DNA of 43,142 nt, from the IMG/VR virus record IMGVR_UViG_3300030329_001430, positions 1 through 43,142 of that record, one strand, 5' to 3'. Source of the DNA: a virus. The position numbers were made by a program, and so were the translations under genes. Below the pieces are notes generated by a model, which saw nothing but the letters and a program-made list of their open reading frames with translations, was not told the origin of the DNA and did no database searches. Positions 9,532-30,600 of the stretch are shown in pieces (within the stretch, counting starts at the first letter, position 1; the number at the start of each line of letters is the position of its first letter).

Positions 9532-11010
9532 TTAGCCAGCGTTCATCCCGGGGATTCCCCAGTCTGAACCAGACTGCTCTTCCATAAGAGAAAAGATACT
9601 CTGCTTTGGGCTTATGTAAACAGAATTCGATTGCCCTCCGCACGTTATGCACCCCACCAAGGCATCACCCCTGTCTGGAGAGTCAAGCCCCTTGGACTTC
9701 ATGTCCTGCTTTGACTCCAGCAACAGGCGTCCACGGCTGTTTGTCTTCCCCATGCGGGTTGTTAGTTGCTCAACCATAACGTCGTCCTCCGGCAGGATGA
9801 GTTCACATTTCTCAATCTTCCTAGCCGCCGTGTACCACATCTCGGCCCCACGGTTGGCATAGTGCCTGTCATCATAAGCACGCTCCCCGTTGTTCACCCT
9901 GTTTACTTGCCACCCTGCCTCGGCCAAGGCGTCGCACATAGGAATACCCAACCCCCCGGCGTCTGCGTATATATTCTGCTCGCTAAGTCCGGCCTTCTCA
10001 AACTCCATAATAAATCGGCCCACACTACTCATGGTGTCCCTCTCTTTCCAGCACACCATAGGTTGTACCTTGTTGCCTTCGCGGACACACAGAACATTCT
10101 CGTCCCCTCCGGCAGCGAAGTCGCAGAAAGCTATCTTGTTTCCCTTCCTGTATATTGGGGGATTCTGAAAACAGTTCTGCAGGATGTTGTACGGTATAAC
10201 AAGGTTCTCCGAACCCAAGTCCATGAACTCCCCGAATATCATTGACCTGACCAGAGGATGCTCCCGCCCCCATTTCTCGAACTGTTCCTCTATCCAAGCC
10301 GGGGGGATGTGCGGGCAGTCATAGGACGTAACGCTGTGGGTCTTCCACAGATGCGCCTCCTTGGTAAATGCCTTGTAGAATGCCCCCTGCGGCCCACCGG
10401 GGCTGCTCATAATTAGAAGCCGACTGGGCTGGCAACGCTCAATAGCCTCGTACACCGGGTCGCCCACCGTCTTTGCCTCATCCACAATCATCAACAGATT
10501 CTCTGATGGCCCCTGCCTGTGCCAGCCCTCAAACTTGCCGGGGTCGCTTGTGCTAAACCCAATCGCCCGACTCCCGTTCTGGTACTCCAACTGGCTCGCC
10601 GTAATCCTCCAACCATCACCCAATGCCCCAATGTACCCCCGGAGGCTCGGCCATAGCTGGTCTTCAACCTGACGCCATACCCCAGCAGTCGTAACAACCA
10701 AGCTGTCGGGGAATCTCAGCATATGCCACAGAACGGCACTTGCTGCGACGAGAGACGTCTTTCCTGAGCCGTTTGCAGCCTTCATGGCCACTCGGGACTC
10801 CTTGTAGTTTAAGTCGCTTAGAACGCGAATCTGCCACTCATACGGCTTCATGCCGAGAAACAGCTCAGGGAAGTTTTCAAGGCGCATAGCCTTGTTGAGG
10901 ACTTCCCCCTTAGTCGCCTTCTTGGCAGGGGCTACAGTTCGGCGTATTTCATCCTCTGTTTCCTTGGAGATATTCGCACTTTTCAGGGGTTTCTTTAGCT
11001 TTAGGGGCAT
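9532..11010 (-). CDS. terL: Terminase large subunit
   Basis: This 492-aa ATPase/nuclease is predicted to cut concatemeric phage DNA and pump it into the prohead through the portal. The ATPase half has a Walker A-type loop AANGSGKTS (residues ~79-86) and a Walker B with catalytic glutamate LLMIVDEAK (~172-180). The C-terminal RNase H-like nuclease half has conserved acidic residues in FCDFAAGGD (D297), IYADAGGLG (D350) and DSPDRGDAL (D449). The length is normal for the family. It follows the small terminase gene by 33 nt. The nuclease motifs are intact, so it is probably functional. Confidence 0.95.
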   Translation of the reverse strand: MPLKLKKPLKSANISKETEDEIRRTVAPAKKATKGEVLNKAMRLENFPELFLGMKPYEWQIRVLSDLNYKESRVAMKAANGSGKTSLVAASAVLWHMLRFPDSLVVTTAGVWRQVEDQLWPSLRGYIGALGDGWRITASQLEYQNGSRAIGFSTSDPGKFEGWHRQGPSENLLMIVDEAKTVGDPVYEAIERCQPSRLLIMSSPGGPQGAFYKAFTKEAHLWKTHSVTSYDCPHIPPAWIEEQFEKWGREHPLVRSMIFGEFMDLGSENLVIPYNILQNCFQNPPIYRKGNKIAFCDFAAGGDENVLCVREGNKVQPMVCWKERDTMSSVGRFIMEFEKAGLSEQNIYADAGGLGIPMCDALAEAGWQVNRVNNGERAYDDRHYANRGAEMWYTAARKIEKCELILPEDDVMVEQLTTRMGKTNSRGRLLLESKQDMKSKGLDSPDRGDALVGCITCGGQSNSVYISPKQSIFSLMEEQSGSDWGIPGMNAG

Positions 11011-11043
11011 AAAAAGTAGTGCCGATTTTGCGAGGTGGGATGA

Positions 11044-11448
11044 TTAAGAGGTAGCCCGTCCCCGGGGGGGTGCCCCTTCCTCCCGTCCGCTCGAAAGCGC
11101 GGCCAAAAGCGCGGGGCTGACCGTGGTCTGCCGCACGTCCGCCGTCACCTCCCGCTTGTCCGCCTTATTCCAATGCCCGAAGCGTCGCTCGAGGAGGGCA
11201 ATGGCAATCTTGCCATCGCGTGCGGCGTGGCGCGTGGCGTGGGCCAGCATCTGATGCTCGTGATGGGCCACAGCTTCGTCAACGGCCATGCGGAGCCTCG
11301 GGTATTTACGCAGCCAACCCTCGAGCGTGGGCAATGGAATGCCCATGAATTTCGAGGCCGATGCGATGGTCAGTCCGTCGCGCAAGAGTCCGGTCAAGGC
11401 TTCGAGCCGGTCGCTGTCAATTGGGAGTTTGGTCGATGTCCGTGCCAT
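11044..11448 (-). CDS. terS: Terminase small subunit (probable)
   Basis: This 134-aa protein has an N-terminal helix-turn-helix-like region (GLTIASASKFMGIPLPTLEG, residues ~25-44) followed by a helical core (RMAVDEAVAHHEHQMLAHAT). The tail is basic and disordered. This architecture and its place immediately before terL match small terminases, which bind the pac or cos site and regulate TerL. It is the first gene of the late arm, with a good promoter on the minus strand 31 nt before its ATG. No clear Shine-Dalgarno sequence precedes the ATG. The DNA is visibly richer in G+C and in CGN arginine codons than its neighbours, which suggests separate acquisition. Confidence 0.8.
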   Translation of the reverse strand: MARTSTKLPIDSDRLEALTGLLRDGLTIASASKFMGIPLPTLEGWLRKYPRLRMAVDEAVAHHEHQMLAHATRHAARDGKIAIALLERRFGHWNKADKREVTADVRQTTVSPALLAALSSGREEGAPPRGRATS

Positions 11449-11484
11449 GATTTACGCCAAAAAAGTTGAGGATTTACTTCGTCG

Positions 11485-11490
11485 TATAAT
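11485..11490 (+). promoter_or_regulatory. Consensus -10 box on the plus strand (divergent)
   Basis: A perfect TATAAT lies 8 nt before the ATG of the 115-aa gene and overlaps the -10 box of the opposite late promoter. No good -35 hexamer is found at 15-18 bp. If used, transcription would start at about the ATG, giving a leaderless mRNA, in keeping with the absence of a Shine-Dalgarno sequence. Confidence 0.4.
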
Positions 11491-11514
11491 ATAGTGACAT
11501 GGAAACACAGTCAA
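11486..11514 (-). promoter_or_regulatory. Sigma70-type promoter for the late arm
   Basis: On the minus strand, TTGACT (11514-11509) and TATTAT (11491-11486) are separated by exactly 17 bp. Each hexamer is one base away from consensus. Transcription would begin near 11479, about 31 nt before the small terminase ATG. The -35 box lies inside the first codons of the divergent plus-strand gene. Confidence 0.7.
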
Positions 11515-11903: not shown

Positions 11904-11936
11904 TGCTCCCCCCCACACACATTGTGGAAGGGAGCG
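11904..11936 (+). repeat. Hairpin element, copy 1 (ribosome-site hairpin)
   Basis: The 18-bp sequence at 11918-11935 (CACATTGTGGAAGGGAGC) recurs exactly at 12392-12409. Here it forms a stem (TGCTCCC at 11904-11910 with GGGAGCG at 11930-11936). Its GGAAGGGAG lies just before the ATG at 11950, so folding could hide part of the ribosome site. Confidence 0.65.
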
Positions 11937-11949
11937 GAAAGAAACCAAA

Positions 11950-12162
11950 ATGAACGAAACAGATAGACACGACGGGTCATCAGAAGCTCTGATGATGGAA
12001 TTCACAAGAAGCCTAGACAAGCTTGGCTGTGTGTTATCAAAGCGAACTGTCATTCGCGGAGAAACGCCAGACGGGTCAAAGGTCAGTTTAATCATTGAAC
12101 CAATCCACCCATTGCTGGCTGGTTCCAGTCCCAAGAGGCCAAAGGGAATGGCAAGGTTCTAG
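11950..12162 (+). CDS. Small hypothetical protein
   Basis: This 70-aa protein starts MNETDRHDGSSEALMM and ends in the basic RPKGMARF. The middle (LGCVLSKRTVIRGETPDGSK, then VSLIIEPI) looks like a small alpha/beta unit. No known family is recognised. The ATG is preceded by a purine-rich GGAGCGGAAAGAAAC that can act as ribosome site and is part of a hairpin repeated at 12380-12412. It is the last coding sequence before the long structured, gene-free block. Confidence 0.5.
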   Translation: MNETDRHDGSSEALMMEFTRSLDKLGCVLSKRTVIRGETPDGSKVSLIIEPIHPLLAGSSPKRPKGMARF

Positions 12163-12773
12163 CAAGATGTAGCTACAAATCCTTCGGTGCAAAGCCGTCC
12201 ACCGGAGGCGGGGCAAGTAATCCCGTGCAGCCCTAGAGGCGAGCGGTAGCATAGGCGGCCCAATGCCACGCCAGCATTGATGGGGTAGCGACCGACGCTA
12301 AACCGGAATAGAGGGGCAAGGGCGACCGTGCGGTAGGCGACCGCACGGCGTCCCCCTAATTTACCGGAAAATCAATTTCTTTGTTCCCGCCCACATTGTG
12401 GAAGGGAGCAAATAGTCAAGGGTAGACGATAAAATCCCCTCCAAAGGTGAGAAGCTGGAAGGAGTTCGCGTAGTGCCATCGGCGTCGGGGCTGATGGCTG
12501 TGAAACAGCGACACCGGGTTTGGTTTCCCCGTAGCAATGATGCACGCGACCCGAATAACTAAATGCCCTGAGTGGTGGCTCTTTCAGGGACTATTCCTGA
12601 TTGGAATACACAGGATGCCAGCCTGTTTAACAGGCCCAGATTTATGCAAGCCTTAGGGCTGGCAGTCCTGTGAAACTTTTAGCCTTTCGCTTCCTTTAAA
12701 CTAGGGAGGCGAGAGGCGCATCCACGCGCCAGTCCCCCAGTAGTTAGCTGGGAAATTCCCGAAAGGGAGAAAG
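12163..12773 (+). ncRNA. Candidate large structured non-coding RNA, or long structured leader of the 237-aa gene
   Basis: About 610 nt have no supported reading frame but many strong helices. Examples are 12181-12189 with 12200-12208 (9 bp), 12326-12333 with 12341-12348 (8 bp, enclosed by a G/C outer stem), and 12380-12388 with 12404-12412. Others are 12475-12482 with 12491-12498, 12497-12501 with 12505-12509, and 12610-12623 with 12657-12671 (14 bp with one bulge, enclosing a 6-bp hairpin). Further down there is a 15-bp G-U-containing helix (GCCTTTCGCTTCC paired to GGGAGGCGAGAGGC, ~12680-12716) and a GAAA-loop hairpin just before the ribosome site at 12771. The size and phage context resemble large phage RNAs such as GOLLD or ROOL. 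I cannot assign it to any of them. It is not a recognisable tRNA, tmRNA, RNase P RNA or self-splicing intron. Confidence 0.6.
12380..12412 (+). repeat. Hairpin element, copy 2
   Basis: This repeats the 18 bp of 11918-11935 at 12392-12409. The outer stem is 9 bp (12380-12388 with 12404-12412). Compared with copy 1, one arm differs (GTTCCC versus GCTCCC) but pairing is kept through a G-U pair, which suggests the structure matters. No start codon follows this copy. Confidence 0.65.
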
Positions 12774-12779
12774 GTGCAA

Positions 12780-13493
12780 ATGGCACGCAAAAAGAAGCCA
12801 ATGAAGTCAACCGCAACACCGCTTGCCTTCTCCAAAATCAACAACCCAGACGGTCGGTTTACAATCGACCAGAAGGTTACTGACGATGGAATTACCAAGA
12901 AGGTAGACATTGGGGTTACAGTCCAGATTGAAGATGAACATGAGTCCTTGTTTCCAGAATTCAAGGACATCTTCGCGGACAAGAAGCTAATCGAGACTTT
13001 CAACACGAAGGTCGCGACAAGAACCCCGTCTGTAGCCAATAAGAAATTCGCAGAAATAAACTTGGCTCATCGCAAGAAGAACCCTGCGAAAAGCGGGAAG
13101 CACAAGGGTAAGGTTGCCGAAATCGAGAAATACGAAGTCGATGAGACTTTGCTCGATGGAACCAAGATAAAGGTATCGCGCCAACGCTGGGTTGGAGGCG
13201 AACCACGCTGGTCGCAGAAGACACTGGGCCAGCTAAAGGAACTGGTTCAGCACGTTGCCAAGGGCATTCCCGCGAAGGCGGTAGCGGCCTGCATAGAGGA
13301 GAACGGATTCGACATCTACTCTGTGCAGATGACCACAGGTCAGTTCAGGGCGGAAGGCAACAGGCCGAAGCCCCTTGCCGAGGCGCAAGCCAAGGCCGAC
13401 AAGGACAAGAAGGATGCTAGTAAGGGCGACAACGCCCCATTGCCCGCAATTCTTGAGAATAGCAACAAGAAGGGCGAGCCAGCCCTAGCCTAA
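12780..13493 (+). CDS. Hypothetical 237-aa protein downstream of the structured RNA block
   Basis: The start is placed at ATG 12780 (MARKKKPMKS) because AAGG lies five bases before it. A GTG at 12774 is in frame but is less well placed. The N-terminus is strongly basic. The region around residues 35-75 resembles a beta-rich domain (GITKKVDIGVTVQIEDEHES). A helical segment with TLGQLKELVQHVAKGIPAKA lies around 155-175, and the tail is Lys/Ala/Asp-rich and disordered. No family is recognised. A nucleic-acid-binding role is only suggested by the charge. A strong terminator follows (13513-13547), so RNA block, gene and terminator look like one self-contained transcription unit. Confidence 0.65.
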   Translation: MARKKKPMKSTATPLAFSKINNPDGRFTIDQKVTDDGITKKVDIGVTVQIEDEHESLFPEFKDIFADKKLIETFNTKVATRTPSVANKKFAEINLAHRKKNPAKSGKHKGKVAEIEKYEVDETLLDGTKIKVSRQRWVGGEPRWSQKTLGQLKELVQHVAKGIPAKAVAACIEENGFDIYSVQMTTGQFRAEGNRPKPLAEAQAKADKDKKDASKGDNAPLPAILENSNKKGEPALA

Positions 13494-13512
13494 CAGGCAG
13501 GGACATCTCACA

Positions 13513-13547
13513 GGGGGTCTGGGACGAAAGTCCTAGGCCCCCTATTT
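13513..13547 (+). terminator. Rho-independent terminator
   Basis: A 13-bp stem (13513-13525 with 13530-13542, two G-U pairs) is capped by a GAAA tetraloop and followed by TATTT. It sits 20 nt after the stop of the 237-aa gene. Confidence 0.85.
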
Positions 13548-13605
13548 CATGCCCATATGGGCGACTCCATAAGTTCAAAGGAAACCTTCAAGGAAAGTAG
13601 AAACA

Positions 13606-13985: not shown

Positions 13986-14002
13986 GAGCTTTCAAGTATG
14001 TT

Positions 14003-14072
14003 TTCTCCGTTTTTCTCCATAAACCTCACGAGAGAATAGAATAGATTAGAATAGAATAGATTAGAATATATA
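14003..14072 (+). repeat. 70-bp dispersed repeat with AT-rich pentamer tract, copy 2
   Basis: The layout matches 9161-9230: 30 nt starting TTCTCCGTTTT and containing CTCACG, then eight pentamers (AGAAT, AGAAT, AGATT, AGAAT, AGAAT, AGATT, AGAAT, ATATA; 14033-14072). Here the tract includes a perfect 15-bp direct duplication. It lies 27 nt before the YkgJ-like gene, so a promoter role is possible for this copy but not obviously for the other. Confidence 0.85.
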
Positions 14073-14098
14073 AACCAAGGCAATAAGAAGGAAAGCTA

Positions 14099-14693: not shown

Positions 14694-14900
14694 ATGAAAA
14701 AACCACAAAGAAGCTACCCGTATGAGGAGCGATGCGACCAAACTGAACAAAGAGAAAAGGAGCATTACGACGAAGCCATGCGCGACCTTGTTTACAGTAT
14801 GTATGTTGGGAAATCGCGAATTCCTCGCAGACCGGAGTATGTTGGGAAATCGCGAATTCCTCGCAGACCGGAAGGAGGGAAGAGTGAGCACGATAAATAG
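14694..14900 (+). CDS. Small hypothetical protein with internal 12-residue duplication
   Basis: This 68-aa, highly charged protein contains the segment YVGKSRIPRRPE twice in a row (from a 36-bp tandem DNA repeat), then ends in GGKSEHDK. Upstream of this is EAMRDLVYS, closely similar to QAAMRDLVHR in the next small gene. No strong Shine-Dalgarno sequence precedes the ATG, so the call is moderate. Removing one repeat unit leaves the frame intact, so the duplication may be recent and neutral. It ends 17 nt after the GTG of the next gene in another frame. Confidence 0.45.
   Translation: MKKPQRSYPYEERCDQTEQREKEHYDEAMRDLVYSMYVGKSRIPRRPEYVGKSRIPRRPEGGKSEHDK
14802..14873 (+). repeat. 36-bp tandem duplication
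   Basis: Units 14802-14837 and 14838-14873 differ only at the last base. Near identity implies a recent duplication. The length is a multiple of three, so both reading frames across it stay open. Confidence 0.9.
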
Positions 14901-15072: not shown

Positions 15073-15346
15073 TCCTCGTGGATGGAATGCGGTTTAGGTT
15101 TTCACCACATTCATCATCTTGGCAAGGACTAACGGGGAAGGGGCCGTGCTTTTTCATTATTGGGCACCGCCCCTCCCCGACCATGCTTTTGAGCGACAAA
15201 CCAGCTTGCCAATCATTTTTTAAGGGAGGTGATTCACAAGAGGAGAGTGCCGCTCCTGCCCATCCACAGGGTGGGCGGCCAGCGACATTCACCCGCCGAG
15301 TGGCGGAATGAATAAGCAAGTAAGTAAACCTAACAGATAAGAAACC
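15073..15346 (+). other. Gene-poor stretch with hairpins and an isolated strong ribosome-site sequence
   Basis: These 274 nt show no well-supported gene. There is a good anti-Shine-Dalgarno complement, AAGGGAGGTGATT at 15223-15235, but no ordinary start codon at proper distance. A 22-codon frame from GTG 15247 to 15315 is possible but weak. Hairpins include a CCGCC/GGCGG stem at 15293-15297 with 15302-15306. An open frame from about 15066 to 15311 lacks a ribosome site. It may be a regulatory leader or small RNA. Confidence 0.35.
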
Positions 15347-16342
15347 ATGAAAGAAATAAAACAGATACTAGGCATTGATAGGCTTGAGGCAATCGAGGCC
15401 AAGACAGGCCCGCTCTTGGACAAATGGGGCAATCAAATAGAGATGGCCAGAGGCATATACATGACTGACAGCTATGAATGTGCTGATGAATCAAGGAAGA
15501 CAGGCCTTGAGAAACTGGTCGGAACGTGTGGCCCGAGGTATCAAGTGTATCAGTACCGCGACGTAAAGAAGCGTGCCGACGAAGCCCTGTACTCTGCTGG
15601 CATAGTTCCAAGCAAGGTCGAGGGATTCCTGACAAAGGGAGGTGCGTCAATGCGCTTGCGATACACGATAGACAGGCCAGAAAGGGACATCCCATCCCGT
15701 GAGCACTGGAAGCTCGGAGAAGAATTCAGTGCTGGCATTGACTTCACGACTGGGCATGGAGGACAGCAAAATGCTCAGGCAATCAAGGGTCACGGCTTCG
15801 TCACGAGGCTTGCCTGTAAGAATGGAATGCGCTCAAACCAGAGCGAGTTCTCTCTCTCCGTCAAGCACTTTGCAACGGAGAAGGTTGACGCTCGCCTGAG
15901 TGAAGACATCAGCAACTGCCTGAATGGGCTTGGCCAAGTTGTTACTTGGTTCAACAAGCTGCATGACGTCAAGATTACCCAGCGTCAAGGCGAGAACATC
16001 CTGAAGAACCTCCATATAGATAGGGGAGTGTGTAATGAGATAACATCTGTGTGGAACCATGCAGACGAGTGGATTGAGGTGTCGCGTGCAGGAACGCCTG
16101 AGTCATACCACTTGGGAAACCTGTATAATGTTGCAACTCAGGTACTGACCCACAATGGCGAGAGAAGGAACATTGATAGCTCCACCGAGTTAAGCGGAAG
16201 GATTCTTGATACCCTTGTTGATGCCCAGAGCAGCGAAAATAGGCTCAATGCGTTAATGGCCCCGCCACAGGCAAGGCGTCGGAGGGGCACGCCTCAATAC
16301 GGTGAGCATCACGGTGTGGGTTCATTGATACAGAACAACTAA
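15347..16342 (+). CDS. DUF932-like phage protein (tentative)
   Basis: This 331-aa soluble protein contains VGTCGPRYQVYQYRDVKKRA near residue 60 and LACKNGMRSNQS near 155, in an order like DUF932/phage-plasmid TIGR03299-type proteins. In those proteins a segment ending in an active or current-state pattern is followed by a region of the type VRVVCxNT. The C-terminus is Arg-rich (PPQARRRRGTPQ). The function of that family is unknown, though members are common next to recombination genes on phages and plasmids. The start has only a weak purine stretch before it. A 13-bp perfect hairpin follows the stop by 5 nt. Family membership should be confirmed by profile search. Confidence 0.6.
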   Translation: MKEIKQILGIDRLEAIEAKTGPLLDKWGNQIEMARGIYMTDSYECADESRKTGLEKLVGTCGPRYQVYQYRDVKKRADEALYSAGIVPSKVEGFLTKGGASMRLRYTIDRPERDIPSREHWKLGEEFSAGIDFTTGHGGQQNAQAIKGHGFVTRLACKNGMRSNQSEFSLSVKHFATEKVDARLSEDISNCLNGLGQVVTWFNKLHDVKITQRQGENILKNLHIDRGVCNEITSVWNHADEWIEVSRAGTPESYHLGNLYNVATQVLTHNGERRNIDSSTELSGRILDTLVDAQSSENRLNALMAPPQARRRRGTPQYGEHHGVGSLIQNN

Positions 16343-20452: not shown

Positions 20453-20486
20453 GGGGCGGGGTGCATATTGTGCCCCGCCCCTATTT
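20453..20486 (+). terminator. Rho-independent terminator
   Basis: A 9-bp G/C stem (20453-20461 with 20473-20481) is followed by TATTT. It separates the recombination genes from the DnaA-like gene. Read-through or a promoter not seen by me must express the two genes after it. Confidence 0.8.
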
Positions 20487-20503
20487 ATCACAAGGAGTAC
20501 ATA

Positions 20504-20944
20504 ATGCTAAAAGCAGCTAACAAAGAAGAACAGGCTCTTATCTGTGCCACGCTTGACATTGTTACACAATGGAGCGGCATAGATGCAGATGTCATAATGA
20601 GTGCTTGCAGACAGGAGCCTGTCGTGAACGCAAGACACTATGTAATAATCCTTCTCATGGATACCGGGCTATTCAGCAATATAGGGCTGGGTAGAATAAT
20701 AAACCGCGACCATTCAACAATCCTGTATGCCAAGGTCAGGCACCACACAAGGATGCAAACAGACAAGAACTATCGCGTTGGATTCGAGAACGTCAGGGAA
20801 GCATTCCAATTGCTTCCCTCTAGCGAGTCTGAGCTTGTCAGAAAGGCAAGGCGATGGAAAACAGCAATGGAGGAATACAGAAATGCCAAGGAGAACGCCG
20901 ACCGTATGGTACAAGAACTGTCTATATATGATGGACGACCTTGA
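20504..20944 (+). CDS. Stand-alone DnaA domain-IV-like DNA-binding protein
   Basis: This is a 146-aa protein from ATG 20504 (AAGGAG six bases upstream). Residues ~15-90 read like the C-terminal DNA-binding domain of DnaA: SACRQEPVVNARHYVIILLM, TGLFSNIGLGRIINRDHSTI and LYAKVRHHTRM. The RDHST signature (R68-T72) is the part that contacts the DnaA box. The AAA+ ATPase domains of DnaA are absent, and a helical, charged C-terminus follows (~100-146). Phage proteins of this kind may bind origins and attract or displace host DnaA. Its stop overlaps the start of the next gene (17 nt), which looks like a replication protein. Confidence 0.8.
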   Translation: MLKAANKEEQALICATLDIVTQWSGIDADVIMSACRQEPVVNARHYVIILLMDTGLFSNIGLGRIINRDHSTILYAKVRHHTRMQTDKNYRVGFENVREAFQLLPSSESELVRKARRWKTAMEEYRNAKENADRMVQELSIYDGRP

Positions 20945-21692
20945 GATGGTCTGGCTCCAGTCCCAAGACGCAGGCAGTTGTGCTGTCTGGGAATGGGTAA
21001 AGGCAGACTGTTGGAAAAGGAACTCACCCCAGCTCAGGCCAATGTCAAAAATAGAGAAGGATGGCGTAGCCAGAAATCTCGGGATTGATGCAATCAGGTT
21101 CGATGCAATCATCGACAGGATGATGACAGAAGTGAACTGGATTGATGCTGACATGAAGGTGCGAAGCTGGGAGAAATGGCAGTCCCTCGCAATAAAGGAG
21201 GCGGACAGCGACAGGCAGTATGTAAAATACTGGAAAGACAAGGCCAAGAACGAAGGCGACCCTGAGTTGCCCCCCGTGCTTCAGGACGACAAGTTCCGCA
21301 TAGCATGGGAGGAGTACACCAAGTACAGGGCACAGAACAAATGGGTTCCGCTGAAGGCCATGTCCGTCGAGCGCAAGTGGCGCGAAATGGCAGACTGGGG
21401 ACTAGAGGGAGCACTGGAGTCTATCGAGCAGTCCATCCGCAACGGATGGCAGGGACTCTTTGTGCCCAAGTCCTTGATTCAAGAGAAAGCACAGTCAAGG
21501 AAGGCCCCAACTGTATGGGAGGCAACGCAAAAGCTAAAGCTGATAGAGGAGGAAATGGCCGCCCTCAAGGGACGGCACTTCTCAGGCCCCCCAGCCAATA
21601 ACTGGGTTGGGGACAAGGGAAAGAAGGCCAAAGCAGAATGGCTTGAGCTAAAGGAAAAACAAAAGAAAATAAAACTAACCCTCATGGGCTAG
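20928..21692 (+). CDS. Replication-protein-like gene (initiator or helicase-loader type, C-terminal signature)
   Basis: This is a 254-aa protein from ATG 20928 (20931 is equally possible). The N-terminal part (~1-100) looks like a winged-helix or small DNA-binding domain with KIEKDGVARNLGIDAIRF. The segment FRIAWEEYTKYRAQNKWVPL, then MSVERKWREMADWGLEGALE and SIEQSIRNGWQGLF (~120-180), is typical of C-terminal regions of phage replication proteins that load helicase or initiate replication. The C-terminus is a helical Lys-rich coil. There is no helicase ATPase motif. It converges on the giant late gene with an 11-nt overlap of stop regions. A terminator hairpin lies 10 nt after the stop. Confidence 0.65.
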   Translation: MMDDLEMVWLQSQDAGSCAVWEWVKADCWKRNSPQLRPMSKIEKDGVARNLGIDAIRFDAIIDRMMTEVNWIDADMKVRSWEKWQSLAIKEADSDRQYVKYWKDKAKNEGDPELPPVLQDDKFRIAWEEYTKYRAQNKWVPLKAMSVERKWREMADWGLEGALESIEQSIRNGWQGLFVPKSLIQEKAQSRKAPTVWEATQKLKLIEEEMAALKGRHFSGPPANNWVGDKGKKAKAEWLELKEKQKKIKLTLMG

Positions 21693-24600
21693 TAGGGAAT
21701 AGGGACTGCGCCCCGCCATAGGGGCGCAGCTCCCTAATCATCTGGGCGGCAACGCCCTGTGTTACAATTCTCTTCCCAACCAATCCCTGCCAGTATTCCG
21801 TTCTCTCATCAACGGGCATGGAACTCAGCTTGTTAATCAACCAAGCCGACCGGGCATTCACTGGCAGTGACTTCAACATCTTCTCTTCACGACTCAAATT
21901 CAAATCCCTAAACCTCTGCACAAGGGCACGCTTAACCAGCAGCGTATCATGTGTTTGCGGCATAGCCCGCAGCATATCCATCGCAGCCCTAGCCCTATCC
22001 CTTGGGGCCAAGTCGTGCGTCTCCCCCCAGAACTTATCCACCAGCCTCTTTCTATGCAGGGCAATACCAGCCTCCTGCTCCGCAAACTGCTCCATTTCCC
22101 TCATGCCCTCAGTTGGGGCAATGAACTTGGAGCGAAACAGACGCTTGGCTGGTGCTGTAAATGGGCTGCTCATCAGTGGCGAGCGTCCCGCTACTGGCTC
22201 CTCTGGGATGAACTGAGTAACCATGCCCCCGGTAAATCCGCGAAGCCCATGCCCCCACATCAGCGGCGAGCCACCCAGAACCTTGGCTAACTTACGATAC
22301 AGTTGTGGTGTATTATTGTAGTATTGCTCTACTGATGGAGCTGCCTTTGCCTCCCTGCTAAGGATAGGCGAGTGGTGGTAAAAGTTCATGTTGGAGGCCA
22401 GCTCCATCGGGGTCTTCAAGACCGGGTTAAGGCTGGAAAGGATGCTCTGGAATCTCCCCGCCGGGTCTAGTTCCAGCCCGCCCTCGGCAGACTGCACGTT
22501 AATCGGCATGAGGTTCTCCATCGTGGCGGCAATCATCTCCTCTACAGCCTTCGGGTCTTTCTTGTAGAAATGGTCGAGGCCCTTCTCAATGAGCATTGAC
22601 ACCATGCCGTAAGTCTCCCGGCGAGGGATGCGGATATACTCGCGAACCTTCTCCCCCGTCCAAGGGTGAGTAAAGAATGAGTCAAGTGGTATATGGAAGT
22701 AGTGCCTCTTGTCCTCTGGGCTAATTTCATCATAGTCCTCATCGTAATCCTTTCTTCTGTTCATTGCCCAAAAGGCAATCGTAGGAACAGCGGCCAAGGA
22801 TGAGAGCCTGAATATAGTCTTGGCCCCCAACTTGGCGGCATCCTTGTCATTGCCAACCCTGAACGCATCAGACAATCGTTTCATGTCCCGCTCCACGCCC
22901 TGCACACGCGCATTAAAGAACATGAACACAAGGTTAAGGCGCATGGCATCAGTAATTGTTCCCCGTCTGGCAAAGTCAGGCGAGCCCACGTAGTTGCGTA
23001 CCTCAATGGCAATCTTACGCATCTTGGCGGCCAGCTCTCTTTGCATGGCATACAGGGCTGGCCCATCCTCCGTATTGTCCATCTTCTCCCTCAACTTGAT
23101 GGCCCCATCTATGTCAAGCCCGCGCCTCATGCCAGCGAGCTTGGCGGTATATTCCATTATCTTGCCAACGGTATTGAGCTTGTCTCTCACAAGCCCGCCA
23201 GCCTCAAACAGTGGGTCAAGGGTTCCACGCCAACCCTTATGCTTCTTAACCGGATTACGTACCTTCTCCCTTTGCAGATAGTCACTGATGGTTGAGCCTG
23301 CGGCACCAGAGTCAATGAACTCCTGAACCAACAGCTCAGGCTGGCCCATCATCCTGCCCAGCAGCTTGTCCTTTTGCAGCAAGCCACGGGACAGAGGAAC
23401 ATTAGCCCACAGGCTGGCAGCAAAACCACGAAGGTACTGCATGGCAAAGTTAACAGGGACACCATACTTGAAATCCTTCAGGCCAAGCCCGTAGCGTGAC
23501 GTAGTAGCGAGACGAAGAGGGTCTACCAACAGGGCATTGAATGTCTGGAAGAATACGTTCAGCCCTGTGGCACCCATCTTGAATGTGTCTGATGCAAACT
23601 CTGCAAACAGGGTTGGGCCGGACTTGGCAACTCCGCCATCATACTTGAGGACACTGGCCACCTCCTCCTTCATAATATAGGTGTGCCTGTACCCTTCCAC
23701 ATATACCTCAATCGTTTCCCAGCCCTCTGGAATAGCCTTCTTTCCGGCCATCCTCATCTTCCTTTGCAAGTCGGCAATCTCTGAGGATATTTTATCACGA
23801 GTCACCTGACTCTTGGCATTTTCCAGCTTCTCTTTGGCCACGGCGATGGCGTCATCTATGCTCTTATTGTATTCTATTACAGCATCGCTCGGCTCCCTCT
23901 CTGCACTGAACTCCTGTATCTCCACGCCCTGCGTGTCTATCTCTGCGAGCTTGGTAAGAAGAAGGCCAAACTTGTTATACTCAGCGGCCATCATTGAGGT
24001 ATAAATCTTGAACCGGGCAGCATCCATCAGCGGGACAAGCCTGAAGTCCGGGCTCTGGATTCCCTTGATATATTCCAGAAGGCTCTTGTCCTTTATGTTG
24101 AAATACTGGGCCACATAGAACGGGGCATAGAAGTCACTTGAATCAAGTATCTTCAGGTAGGCGTTCATGTTAATCCTGCCAGACTCGACAAGGCCAAAGA
24201 GCGACTCAGAGAGGAAGTCGTTATAGACATCCTTGGCCCTCTTAAATTCCTCCATCTTCTCCTCGCCAAGCTTGCTCCTCAGCCCTGACAGGCCCTTCAA
24301 GACTGAGTTATTGTTCCACTCTGCAACCTTCTTACTGGAAACCATCAGTGTCACCAGCTCAATTCTCTCCTCACTGGACAGCCTCTCCAGCATCCTCTCA
24401 GTTTCCTCCGTCTCCTTGATTGTGCCGTCCGCATTTACCTCTATCCCAACGGAGTCAAGTATCTCCCTTCTCCTCATGTCCAGCTCTTCCTGCTTGGCCA
24501 AGCGGGTATGGGTGCGGTGAAGGAACAGGTAAGTATTGAAATCCTTCTCAATTTTAGAGCCCCTTCCAATGATGCTCTTGATGGCTGCATTGAACTGGTC

Positions 24601-27600
24601 GTTCTTATGCTGGGCCTTTTGTGGGGCACCGTTAAGTAGCTCATGGTTCTCCTCTGTGGCAAGAAGCGGGGCACCGCTGTAGTTTCTTGACTCCAGAACC
24701 TTGCGCTCTGCCACGCCAAACACCCGGGACTTGGAGATAACTCCCTTATAGAACCTCTCCCACCAGCTCATCTGGCTTTCCTTCTCCGGGGCTGGCTCCA
24801 TCACCTGTTCAGCGGCAGCGACTGCTGACTCAGGCGTTATGTTCGGGTCACTGACGTTAATGCGGGTATGCCTTCTGGACTCGGAAAGAGAGATTTCCTC
24901 TCGTATCCCGAATGGCCCACTAAGACGCCCCTGAATCTTTCTTACTACCCCGCGTAATGCCTTGACTGTCAGGTCTACCTCCTGACCAAGCGTCTCTGGG
25001 TATTGAGAGTAAACATCCTTCATAACTTGTTTACCCATGCTCGCGAAAAGTAATGCCCATATACTTATTATCGTATCAAAGGCTGCCCGTCTCCCGCCCG
25101 CTTGGCCCCGCATCCAAAGCAGTTGGCGTTTCAAGTCGTCCGGAAGGAGTGGCATAATTACGTTTTGAAATTGTTCATTAAACATCTCTCTATTTATCTG
25201 CACTGACTCCGGGCTGCCTTCCACCGTTAGTGTTAAATAGTGAGGTTGGAGTTGAGGGGGCAGGAACTCCACTTTAGGGCTTGGTGTCCAGACTTTCCGT
25301 TGCAAAAGCATTTCCCATACCCTCCTCATTGCTAGGTGTCCCCAGTGTTCTTCATCTAAGCCTCTCTGGATTTGGCGGCGTGACTTCTCTGGTGTGGATT
25401 TGGCCTCCCAATATTGTGTCTTCTCCTCTAGCTTAACAACGTCCAAACTGGGCGGAGCATCAAACAACTCTTTTGAAGGCGGTGGAAGGTGTGCCAAATG
25501 CTTAGGTCGCTTGGGGTTTTTTATTCTGGGAAGAGCGACATTAAGCATACGCATAAACAAATCCATAGCACTCGTCAGAACTGCATTCTGCCACTGAGTC
25601 ACCATGCCGGAAAGCAGCTTCTTTTCTGCTTCTGGTAGTATATCTATCCTGCTTTTCTCTTGGATTAAATCAGCAGTCCCCGGAGTATCCTCGAATCCAG
25701 CTAACGCATCACTTATGTCATCCTCGGCGATGACGCCCGACTGAAGTTTGGCTTCCAATTCATCAATGGCAGACGCAATAAGCTCATCAATTTCCGCTTC
25801 TTCCTGCGCCTTGGGCTTGGCCTTGTAAAACTCCTCTAGTTCAGGCGACATAGTGCCCGGGTACTCTAATATAGCCTCCAGATTGGATTTCTCATGCTCA
25901 ACTTGAGCCTTCAATTCATGGAACCCCACAACATCAGTCCGCACCCGCCAAGGCACAAGGCTCCAAGGGCCTGCCGTTAACTTATCCCTTAAACTGCCCC
26001 TCGTCCCAAGAACTAAGGCCACCAATCGCTTCATCCATTGAAGCCCTTCCCCGCTCTCTATAATATTTTTTAGCTCGTCCTCAAAGTATGCCATCGGCTC
26101 TACGTCTGGCCCTTCTTCCTCAGCGAGGGAGGTAGCTCTCGCCAAGGCAAGGTCTTCCTTCTCCTTCATTACATCCAATATATAATTGATATGTTTAAGC
26201 TGCTCCTCAGGGCTTGGGTCTGGAACCTTGGTGTAGGATAGCTTGCTAATCCATGACTTAAACGTCATGCCCTTCAGCTTGGCAACTTCCGGGGTTTCAA
26301 CGGTCGAGACGTCCCGATAACCCAAGTCGTACATAGTGCCCATAGGGTTACTCAGTGAGTCATCGTACTGAAACTCCTTCGTCCCATATATGCTATGGGC
26401 TTCCCCGAATAGTCCCTTGTCCAAGAGTCCTTTATCTGCTTCTATTTGAGCGTCCCCGGATTTCGCCTCGGGTGAATGGGTGACGTACTGGAACTCTTTC
26501 CCTCCCCTCGCTTCATCAAACAACACGAATTGATTTGCCCACCCAATCATAGGAATCACCGCATCCGCAAGCGGGGCTGTCTGCATGGTTTCAATGGGCC
26601 TAGTGGAGAGTGCCTTATATGTCTGCTTGACAACTTCATCAAGCAGGGTTGACTCATTACTGACAGAAATACCCAGCCTTGCAAAGGCTCCCTTGATTGC
26701 ATGGACGAACCACTCAAGTGCGGTCTTGGTTGCTGCGCCATCCTCGTACACAACATTAGCCAGCCACTGCTGGAACTCGTTATGCTCAAAAGCATGGGCA
26801 ACGAACTCCTTCATGTTGGAAAGCTGATACTCAAACGCCTCGCTAACCTTCACCTGAGTCCCGTCGGCGTATTTAATATGCTCCTTCCCGGCGACCTCCT
26901 TGGCCTTGTTGAACACCTTCTCCATCTCCACCCACTTCTGCTTGCCGCTTTCATGGTCGCGGGCAAATCCATCAGTGAGCATATGGATGGACTCATGTAT
27001 TAAAACATTATAACTCTGAACCGGGTCTGCATAATCCAGTGGCGTGAGGAATATGTTGTTATTGAAGTAAAGGCCAGCGACATCAGACAGCATTGACTTC
27101 TTGTTCCGCCCCACCATGTGAACCCTAACGTCCTGCCCTGTTGACTCAGCCGCTGGTAAAATAATATCGTGAAAGAGTCGCTTCATCGGGCCAAGCCCAA
27201 GCTCTTTGTTTTCAAATGTCTTATCCAATGCCTCGGATATTGCCTTCTCCGCTTCAAGAAGGGACATGGAGGCTTGGACTTTAACCGAGGGCCGACTAGT
27301 AGGAGACTCCTCAATCCAAGCCTGCCGTCGCTTGGCGAATGCGTCTCTAACCCTCTCCCACTGTGCCTGCCTGCCATTGAGCGGAGCCACAAGCTCCATG
27401 AATGTTGGTGTCCCGTCTTCATGGAACTCATTGGCCATAATCCTCGTCCCTTCCTTTAGGCTGAAGAGGAGCTTCTTGGTGAGCCTTTGCAGTTCCCCCG
27501 GCGGCTTTTTCCCCGTAGGGCCGTATGTCTCTTGGGTAACAGGCCCGGTGGGCATAGTGTCAAGTAAGTGGCCTTGAAACTTAATTGCTTCCGGGGACAT

Positions 27601-30600
27601 CGCCCCCGTGTCGGATAGCATTGGGTGGCGCGGCCCCTCGCGCTCCTTCACCTCTGATATGTCCATCTCGGAGGCATGGCTGAGTAATGACTTCTTCTCG
27701 GCCATCCTCACATCCTGACTGGAGATGTCCATTGAGTCGGCAATCTCCCTCATGTATCTTTCTAGGCTCTTCTTCAGGCTCCCGACAGCCTCCCTGAGGT
27801 GCTCCCTTGGAATTGCATGAAGGTTTCCTTTGGCGTCAACTGTTACAGCCTGTCCCGGATTATACCCTTTAAGGTATCTTGCTATGGCGACAGGAGCAGA
27901 CAGCTCCTCGAATCTTGGTAGCTTCCCAGCAAGAACGGCTTCTGCGCGTTTGCCTTCGATTATCTTAGCCTCTTTCTGTATCCTCTTGAACATCGCCCCG
28001 ACATCATGGGCCTTGCCAGCCTTATCTTTATCCCGCTCCAGCCCCCTTAGGGTGATGTTGTTTTCGTATATTTGCTCGTTAACAACACCCTGTCTCAGGG
28101 TAATTTTTTTAAGCTCCTCATTGGTTACATTTTCAACCTCTTCAATTGGAACCCATACGTCTGGCCTTGCATAGGGCTGAATATGAACATCAATCTGCTC
28201 ATACCTTCCGGGCTGAATTGGCCCCTTGCCGTCAGGGCCACGGTATGGCTTAACCGCGCCCTTCTTCAGCCCCTCCTTTATATTCCTATATCCAAACCGC
28301 TCCTTGGTTTCTACATTTGAAATTGGGGTATTCTCCCTCTCCCATGTGTCAATCTCCTCGTCTGTCATGGGGCGGCGGGTAATCCTTTGTCCCGGGAGCT
28401 TCTTCCAAACAGTCGTGCGCTTGACAACCGTGCGCCCGCCAACAACCTCTCCCCCATATTCCCTTATCCTTCCTAGGTCTATGGCTTGCTCCCTAAGCTC
28501 CCTTTCCTCAGCCTGTAACTTTCTGATTCTGGCCTTGAGGGATTTAATCTTCTTGAAGGAAACCGCGTCCTTGTAGAGCCAATTTGCAGCCTCCTCGAAA
28601 AGGTAATTATTGATGAGCCTATATAGCTGCTCAGACTGAAGCTCCGATGTCTCCGTCGAGTCCGGCCTCTTCATCAGGTCGAACTTACGTTGACCAACAA
28701 CCAGATTCTGAATTTTCTCAAGGAAGATAGACAACGCCTTGGATAGCTTGCCGGATGCTGCCAACTGTGCGCGTTGGTCGGCAGACCGAGAAACCCCAGC
28801 CTCTCCAGATAGAGCCCTGTCCATCTCGACTTGAACCCTATCCATTTGGTCAAAGACTGTCTCATTGTCCCTAATCTCCACCTTCACCTTGGTATCAAAT
28901 CTTTTGTGAGCCTTCAGTCCTTTTAGTAAATCGAAATACCTATGCCTTAAAAACTTGAAGCTCCCAAAGTGGGCGAAATTATGCGCGGCAGCGGGCCCGG
29001 TCATCCCGCCCTTCATGGTGGCCCTGCCATCAAATATGGCTTGCAGCTCTTCTCTGGTTTGCTGCATCAATGTTGCTGCACGGTCATAGGCCACAGAGCT
29101 GCTTCTGCCGCCGATGGGCTTTGCCCTCTCAGTGCTAAATGTAAGGGAAAGGGCATTTCTCCTGAGCACCTCAAGCCAAGTCGGGTATCCCTTTAGCCCC
29201 TCGCTCTCCTTGCCTCTGGCTGGCTTGGCATACTTATCCCTCTCCTTGTTGCCTTGAACCCATTCGTGAACGAATAGTGTGTCAGCCTCGGAGAGGTCAG
29301 GCCCGTCGTTCCATTTCCTCTGCTCCCTGTTAAGCTCAAGGGCTTCCTCCGCAGGGGTTGGCTGCATCCATTGGGCTGTCTCTATGGCAAGAACCTCACC
29401 CGGGTCACGAGTGAGCTTGTCCCTAATCTCGATGCCAAGTTCCTTGCCAAGTATCTCCCTGTTGCGCCTAACTTCTGCCAGCTTATTCTCAAGAAGTTTG
29501 GTTCCCTCCTTCTGGCCCTTCTTATCAAATTTCTTCTTCTCCTCAGCCAGCCTTAACTCAAGACTCCTTATGCTCAAGACCAGCTTTCTATATTGCTGAT
29601 TAAGAGTAGGCTCCACCATTGGGGCTTCCTGTATCTCAAGAACCAGCTCCTCGCCAGCAACCTGAGCCTTCGAGAGCCTCTCATGCCTCTTGTCAATCCT
29701 ATCAATCTCCCACTGGACTTGCTGTGCTATAGATGCCCCCTCCTTTGGGGCCTCCAGTTCTGCAATCTTACCCTGCACCTCCTTCAGTTCCGTGGCAATT
29801 TCCTTCCGGGAGCGAGTTCCCTCGGCGACAGTCTTGACATCGCCCATAGTCTGCTTGGGAATTGTCTTCCACTTTATAGGCCCCCTTGCTGGCACTAGGA
29901 CTGGAATAGTTTCACCAACTCGCTCTGCTGTTGGCACTGGAACAGCCTTGCCCTTCTTGGCTTTAGCCTTGGCAGCCTCAGGCTCGGCCTCTAGCTTTGG
30001 AGCCTTGGAAAGCTCCTCCTCTAGCTCTACCTCTCTCTCCCTAAGCTCCTCGACTGTGGGCGGCTTCTCAAGTGGAGCAATATCCTCTTCAAGCCCCGGA
30101 AGACCGAGCTGCCCCGCAGTGGGCTTTGCCCCGGCCTTTGGTATTGGAGCCCCCTTGCCCCTCTTGCCCCGGGCTCCGCCCATACCGGGAAGTTCCTGTT
30201 GCTTGGCAAATGGTATGTCTATACCAGTGGTGTCTTCCTTTGAGAAGTCTGGGGGCGCAACCTTTCGATGCACCGCCCCAGTAAGATGAGCCTCAGTGGG
30301 GTGCTGCACAGCCTTTTCAGCCACGAACGCCGCGATGTCTACCGCTGGGAAGTTAGAAAGAGCACCTAAAACTATGTGCCACTTACTGGCCTGTGGCTTG
30401 CTCGGGTTCAATGGAATCGCACTCAACTCCGGGTTGTATGCGACAAGCAAATCGTATGCCTTGTCAGTTAACTGATTATTGTCAGAATGCATGAGCGTAT
30501 TGCCAAGCAATTCTTTATTGATTCCCTTGGGGAAGTCATAGACAGTTGCTGCTTCATCTGTAGCAACTTTCCACTCGCGCTGATGGGCATGCGCGATGGC

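Follow-up and report, generated by a model that had tools for sequence, protein, structure and literature searches.

A pseudoknotted structured RNA beside a single protein gene in the early region of four related tailed phages

In this study we describe a structured RNA encoded in the early region of a tailed phage and carried at the same place by three further IMG/VR phages. The starting sequence is a 43,142-base IMG/VR virus record, analysed over its whole length and hereafter called the window. That a real structured RNA is present at this locus is practically certain. The order of elements is the same in all four phages: a first small gene, a non-coding RNA region of 400-660 nt, a gene for a protein of 228-237 aa and a terminator-like hairpin. 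The reading we favour, with a probability of about 0.4, is a cassette made of a stand-alone early RNA and a companion 237-aa protein, in which the core of the RNA would dock on a conserved host component; this function is a candidate one.

The terminase genes of the phage lie on the minus strand (9532-11448), and the plus-strand early region, which begins at 11499, encodes an Erf-like annealing protein, an exonuclease, a RusA-like resolvase and an O-like initiator. The closest terminases are those of Akkermansia phages (33-38% identity), a likeness that only hints at a verrucomicrobial host. With 611 nt, the gene-free gap at 12163-12773 exceeds every other forward-strand coding gap in the early region, none of which is longer than 155 nt. 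ARAGORN found no tRNA gene in the 43 kb. Elsewhere in the window, a single minus-strand ORF of 3627 aa (21682-32565) occupies a quarter of the genome, and a perfect 36-bp tandem duplication (14801-14872) lies within overlapping small ORFs.

Distribution and fold of the conserved core

Relatives were reached by a terminase search, followed by blastn of the early region against the neighbours obtained. Matches at 12376-12551 were found in L013 and in L004 and L005, the last two being identical in sequence here, and L037 was added through a motif pattern, so that the set comprises four distinct contigs (the window, L005, L013 and L037). Profile searches, with all loci compared, found the RNA and the protein family together in the four contigs and neither of them alone; further terminase relatives (50-70% identity) carry neither. 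A distant blastn search of phage records gave no match. The pattern GTSAAGGGTASACG had two chance matches, L043 and L044, and three pattern matches in the bacterial genomes L045-L047 are also due to chance, model R1 scoring none of these. Looser patterns added, beyond the known contigs, only chance matches among the matches listed. The structured RNA is restricted to one phage clade.

Table 1. Positions of the RNA elements and their neighbours in the window.
Feature	Position	Strand	Remarks
HP-A copy 1	11905-11940	+	before a 70-aa ORF; copies 1 and 2 flank this ORF and the variable region
Variable 5' region	12163-12379	+	stable hairpins; no alignment with relatives outside HP-A
HP-A copy 2	12380-12412	+	lower stem GUUCCC/GGGAGC, internal loop GCC/GAA, upper stem CAC/GUG; directly 5' of core
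Core domain	12411-12561	+	most conserved part; P1, P2, P2b, P3, P4, P5, pseudoknot and enclosing helix; R1, R2 and 17 compensated pairs
P1 hairpin	12414-12417 / 12425-12428	+	loop AAGGGUA invariant; C-G to G-C swap in L005
P2	12438-12442 / 12461-12465	+	3/5 pairs compensated
P2b, inside P2	12446-12448 / 12454-12456	+	2/3 pairs compensated
Tentative enclosing helix CGCG	12467-12470 / 12545-12548	+	from RNAalifold; nearly invariant, one mismatch in L037, 0 pairs compensated
P3	12475-12498	+	9-bp stem, intact in 4/4; 6-nt loop GUCGGG (12484-12489)
Pseudoknot	12484-12489 (P3 loop) / 12550-12555	+	3/6 pairs compensated
P4 hairpin	12500-12514	+	GUGG/CCAC vs GGAG/CUCC; conserved unpaired loop AAACAGCGA (relatives AAAGCAGCGR)
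P5 hairpin	12516-12518 / 12527-12529	+	GGG/CCC; loop UUUGGUUU; near-invariant letters in A4
Conserved strand GCAANNANGCACG	12534-12546	+	3' of P5; near-invariant letters in A4
P6 hairpin	12592-12608	+	loop UGAUU; UAUUCC/GGAAUA, CGUUCC/GGAACG, CACUCC/GGAGUG; single-sequence folds
P7 long helix with internal loop	12609-12672	+	outer 7 bp intact in 4/4, 5 compensated (hand alignment); every single-sequence fold
P8 long hairpin	12682-12717	+	49/52 cells paired, 11/13 pairs compensated (hand alignment); single-sequence folds
P9 hairpin	12716-12730	+	GCGC AUCCAC GCGC; GGCGCAUC nearly invariant; alignment and RNAalifold
P10 hairpin	12736-12752	+	just 5' of the 237-aa gene's ribosome-binding site; sequence differs, same hairpin in 4/4
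237-aa basic protein gene	12780-13493	+	pI 9.5; directly 3' of the RNA in every case
Terminator-like hairpin	13513-13547	+	GGGGGUCUGGGAC GAAA GUCCUAGGCCCCC UAUUU; weak U tract

The structure of the core was derived by hand on a MAFFT alignment of the 5' core (A4). In A4, paired cells amount to 88.9% (75.6 in shuffles), and over the eight helices 17 pairs are changed on both sides. Shuffles give 7.1 ± 1.8 such pairs, and controls with the partners slid give 0-7; with four sequences, from which the structure itself was derived, these pair counts are not probabilities. The covariation score is 0.496, compared with 0.212 for shuffles. Two safeguards against circularity were used, namely the slid controls and a leave-one-out covariance model. 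The latter, R2, built without the window, found 12411-12561 at 104 bits (E 1.1e-24) and had 0 matches in 13 other sources, and the best score of R1 on 787 kb of unrelated virus loci was 15.5 bits. The compensatory changes among the four phages show that the fold is real.

RNAalifold, applied unaided to A4, returned P1 to P5, P2b and the CGCG enclosing helix, the pseudoknot excepted. The pseudoknot is written GUCGGG/CCCGAA in the window and GCUUGG/CCAAGC, GCUAGG/CCUAGC and GCUAGG/CCUAGA in its relatives; its covariation score of 0.61 compares with 0.23 for shuffles, reached by 2 of 500, and with 0-0.11 for slid partners, and one of its three concerted pairs shows three pair types. For P3, 8/9 pairs are compensated in the hand alignment and 6/9 in the MAFFT alignment. 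The P5 helix is invariant, so covariation gives no test of it.

The first-pass annotation, made from the letters of the window, had proposed a large structured phage RNA of about 610 nt and had named homologues and covarying pairs among the ways to judge it. Both were found, and together with the leave-one-out model they uphold the structured RNA; the size did not hold, since conservation covers only about 365-400 nt (12380-12779). The most conserved piece, 12411-12561, had not been picked out.

Flanking hairpins, folding energy and neighbouring genes

Conservation starts near 12380 with HP-A and ends with P10 at 12752. HP-A precedes the core in L013 and in L037, where its upper stem is altered to UCCG/CGGA, and L005 has none. 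In the window it is duplicated as a 24-nt direct repeat (11912 and 12386, 92% identical, 474 nt apart), and the 70-aa ORF between the copies has no relatives. We infer that the variable 5' part of about 220 nt and this ORF may have been inserted or duplicated in this phage specifically. The stretch 11905-12411 looks as if a cassette had entered between the RNA and the first early gene. The 3' half of the RNA (P6-P10) aligns poorly in sequence, and the same chain of hairpins is found when each sequence is folded alone; its compensated pairs were counted in the hand alignment, which favours pairing.

The whole of 12163-12773 had been described as gene-free and strongly structured, and both points hold. 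The folding energy of the plus strand is -251.4 kcal/mol, whereas 20 dinucleotide shuffles give -215.2 ± 8.2 and none of them is as low (z -4.42); the minus strand has a z of -3.44. The homologous regions of L005 (z -5.3) and L013 (z -4.0) are over-stable as well. The excess is carried by P7 and P8 (z -8.5 and -5.5 for 150-nt segments starting at 12576 and 12651), the two helices that the annotation had placed at 12610-12671 and about 12680-12716. In 150-nt segments it is located in 12576-12725, with 12426-12650 at a z of about 0. The structure noted at 12312-12357 is indeed a strong hairpin, but it belongs to the variable, non-conserved part. Comparable z values are found for other hairpins between early genes, and energy alone is therefore insufficient to make the case. 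Furthermore, the best-conserved 150 nt, 12411-12561, have a z of about 0 and were detected only through comparison with relatives; a screen on folding energy alone would miss the most conserved domain.

The annotation had also joined the block, the 237-aa gene and the terminator of this gene into one unit, which stands as a conserved gene order, the three elements following each other in 4/4 phages. Homologues of the 237-aa protein in L005, L013 and L037 share 28-36% identity, with pI values of 8.6-9.7 across the family. The protein has no match in Pfam, PHROGs, NCBIfam, PADLOC or PDB, found nothing as sole query, and had no tblastn match in phage records. Its predicted structure, of low confidence (pLDDT 69), shows no recognisable RNA-binding fold, and Foldseek returned nothing usable. 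A 265-aa protein at a similar place in L006 was rejected as a homologue (hhalign probability 0.7%).

The hairpins that L005, L013 and L037 have at the place of the window's hairpin at 13513-13547 are strong, and their tails are rich in U or UC. The window's hairpin was not called by the terminator scan, its U tract being weak, and is a putative terminator. Around it (13501-13555), an apparent outer stem encloses the U-rich strand, with GAUACAG/CUGUAUC in L037, GCACA/UGUGC in L013 and ACAGAA/UUCUGU in L005; such a stem would be sensible only if transcription passes the terminator-like hairpin. Just before the RNA, L037 has a consensus terminator; the fold of L013 shows a 15-bp hairpin there, together with a UUUU run.

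Other conserved non-coding elements lie nearby. A 79-bp block at 13994-14075 is 79-89% identical in L005, L013 and L037, and 58 bp of it are 88% identical in L006, which is more distant; it contains two TTTTCTCC motifs and, after them, 5-bp repeats of AGAAT, and is a candidate replication origin (iterons) or promoter. A 158-aa protein encoded at 20468-20944 resembles the C-terminal, DNA-binding part of DnaA (E 7e-7) and may act at this block. A second conserved leader, at 15225-15360, lies 5' of a DUF932 gene and is 82% identical in L005; a covarying hairpin (CACCCGCCGAGTGGCGG / CACCCATCGAGTGATGG) just precedes the start codon, with an SD-like AAGGGAGGTGATTCA further upstream.

Candidate functions of the RNA

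In our favoured reading, HP-A, the 150-nt pseudoknotted core and the five-hairpin chain would make up a plus-strand RNA of about 400 nt belonging to the early operon, which would form one early-expressed cassette with the 237-aa gene and the terminator-like hairpin and would act as a stand-alone molecule. The core, with its near-invariant loops AAGGGUA, AAAGCAGCGA, UUUGGUUU and GCAANNANGCACG, would dock on a host machine that changes slowly (RNA polymerase, ribosome or RNase), and the basic 237-aa protein would bind or protect the RNA, or be co-delivered with it. The core has a nucleotide identity of 67-76%, against 28-36% amino acid identity for the adjacent protein, a difference that speaks for a conserved partner distinct from the 237-aa protein. 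Taken with the downstream hairpin in 4/4 phages and the lack of an expression platform between core and gene (see below), this better conservation of the RNA points either to an RNA that acts itself or to a leader of the HK022 put type.

The latter, a cis-acting processive antitermination leader (put- or EAR-like) whose nascent RNA would bind the host polymerase and cause read-through of downstream hairpins, is possible, although on the doubtful side. The RNA is encoded close to where the early operon begins, its conserved unpaired bases fit binding to host polymerase, and no conserved expression platform is needed; on the early transcript a terminator-like hairpin follows it in 4/4 phages, the window's own U tract being weak, and more early genes follow on the same strand. 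The put element itself works on early genes as RNA alone (PMC9378689). However, the RNA is far larger than put, stands behind the first gene and about 900 nt past the predicted early promoter (11466-11495), has only one terminator-type hairpin nearby downstream, and resembles put neither in sequence nor in Rfam. The favoured reading can also be sharpened to a ribonucleoprotein of the pseudoknotted early RNA and its private 237-aa protein, which would seize host polymerase, ribosome or RNase and represent a new class separate from GOLLD and ROOL; in this specific form we consider it unlikely.

No promoter was found directly 5' of the RNA, which may therefore be no more than a leader to the 237-aa mRNA, and no 3'-end or processing signal separates it from the gene. 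An autogenous or ligand-responsive leader, riboswitch-like or protein-bound, that tunes 237-aa translation would fit the constant place of the RNA directly 5' of the gene, with 16-40 nt from the end of P10 to the start codon. Between core and start codon, however, the four phages have neither a terminator-like site on the RNA strand nor a conserved antiterminator, SD-masking helix or other expression platform such as a riboswitch would have, and the SD-like sequence, recognisable in the window, L005 and L037, is outside the conserved helices. Since conservation of the core also far exceeds that of the protein, whereas an operator would track its own protein, we hold such control to be quite improbable.

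The compact pseudoknotted core with its many invariant unpaired bases is reminiscent of RNAs that catalyse reactions or bind ligands. Yet the group I, group II and self-cleaving ribozyme models have no match, and the RNA sits at the same site in 4/4 phages with a vertical distribution, no exon junction and no mobility gene, which leaves little room for a ribozyme or a relic of a mobile self-splicing or self-cleaving element. Still less credit is due to a role of the structure as DNA or primer transcript, for instance at a replication start: a possible origin, the conserved (AGAAT)n block, is located 1.2 kb downstream, but the conserved stems contain G-U pairs, the helices are more stable on the plus RNA strand, and the terminator-like hairpin stands between the RNA and the repeats. 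Finally, a conserved protein frame or chance structure can be set aside, since the short open frames present (the longest, on the plus strand of the window core, has 50 codons) include none that runs uninterrupted through the core in each of the four phages, the finding that the annotation had said would count against an RNA being thus absent, and covariation is far above the controls.

Comparison with known RNAs

Rfam cmscan, at the gathering threshold and at E ≤ 10 for the window and E ≤ 5 for its relatives, returned only chance-level matches to unrelated families. GOLLD, ROOL, HEARO and group I/II introns as modelled in Rfam are ruled out by the lack of a covariance-model match, and the first-pass suggestion that the RNA could be GOLLD or ROOL finds no support. 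Both are RNAs of phages and prophages, often found near tRNA islands, and GOLLD has a variable 5' and a conserved 3' part (PMC12286853). The present RNA is similar to GOLLD as a large ornate phage RNA with this same division, extensive helices and pseudoknots (PMC12286853), but GOLLD often exceeds 800 nt and is frequently, not universally, near tRNA islands, whereas this RNA measures about 400 nt and has a companion protein gene, no tRNA in the window and no model match. With ROOL it shares a phage location, pseudoknotting (multiple in ROOL) and, for the block as first annotated, a similar size; ROOL, in contrast, lies near tRNAs without a known protein partner (PMC12286853), and its model does not match. 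HK022 put is, like the RNA described here, a structured RNA early in a phage operon and ahead of terminators (PMC9378689). The present RNA is much larger, pseudoknotted and unrelated in sequence, and antitermination is here a candidate only.

In the ToxIN (type III) toxin-antitoxin system, a pseudoknotted RNA lies directly 5' of one protein gene, an arrangement that the present RNA shares. Unlike type III systems, 12163-12779 contains no tandem repeat, and the protein has no ToxN/AbiQ-like match in Pfam or PADLOC.

Judged from sequence, this is a new family of large structured phage RNAs, found so far in four phages, that has a fold of its own and a private neighbouring protein. Large structured phage RNAs are few, and this one is compact, with a sharply defined core and predicted contact bases. 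Its one dedicated candidate protein partner and the clear borders of the cassette make the role of such RNAs testable.
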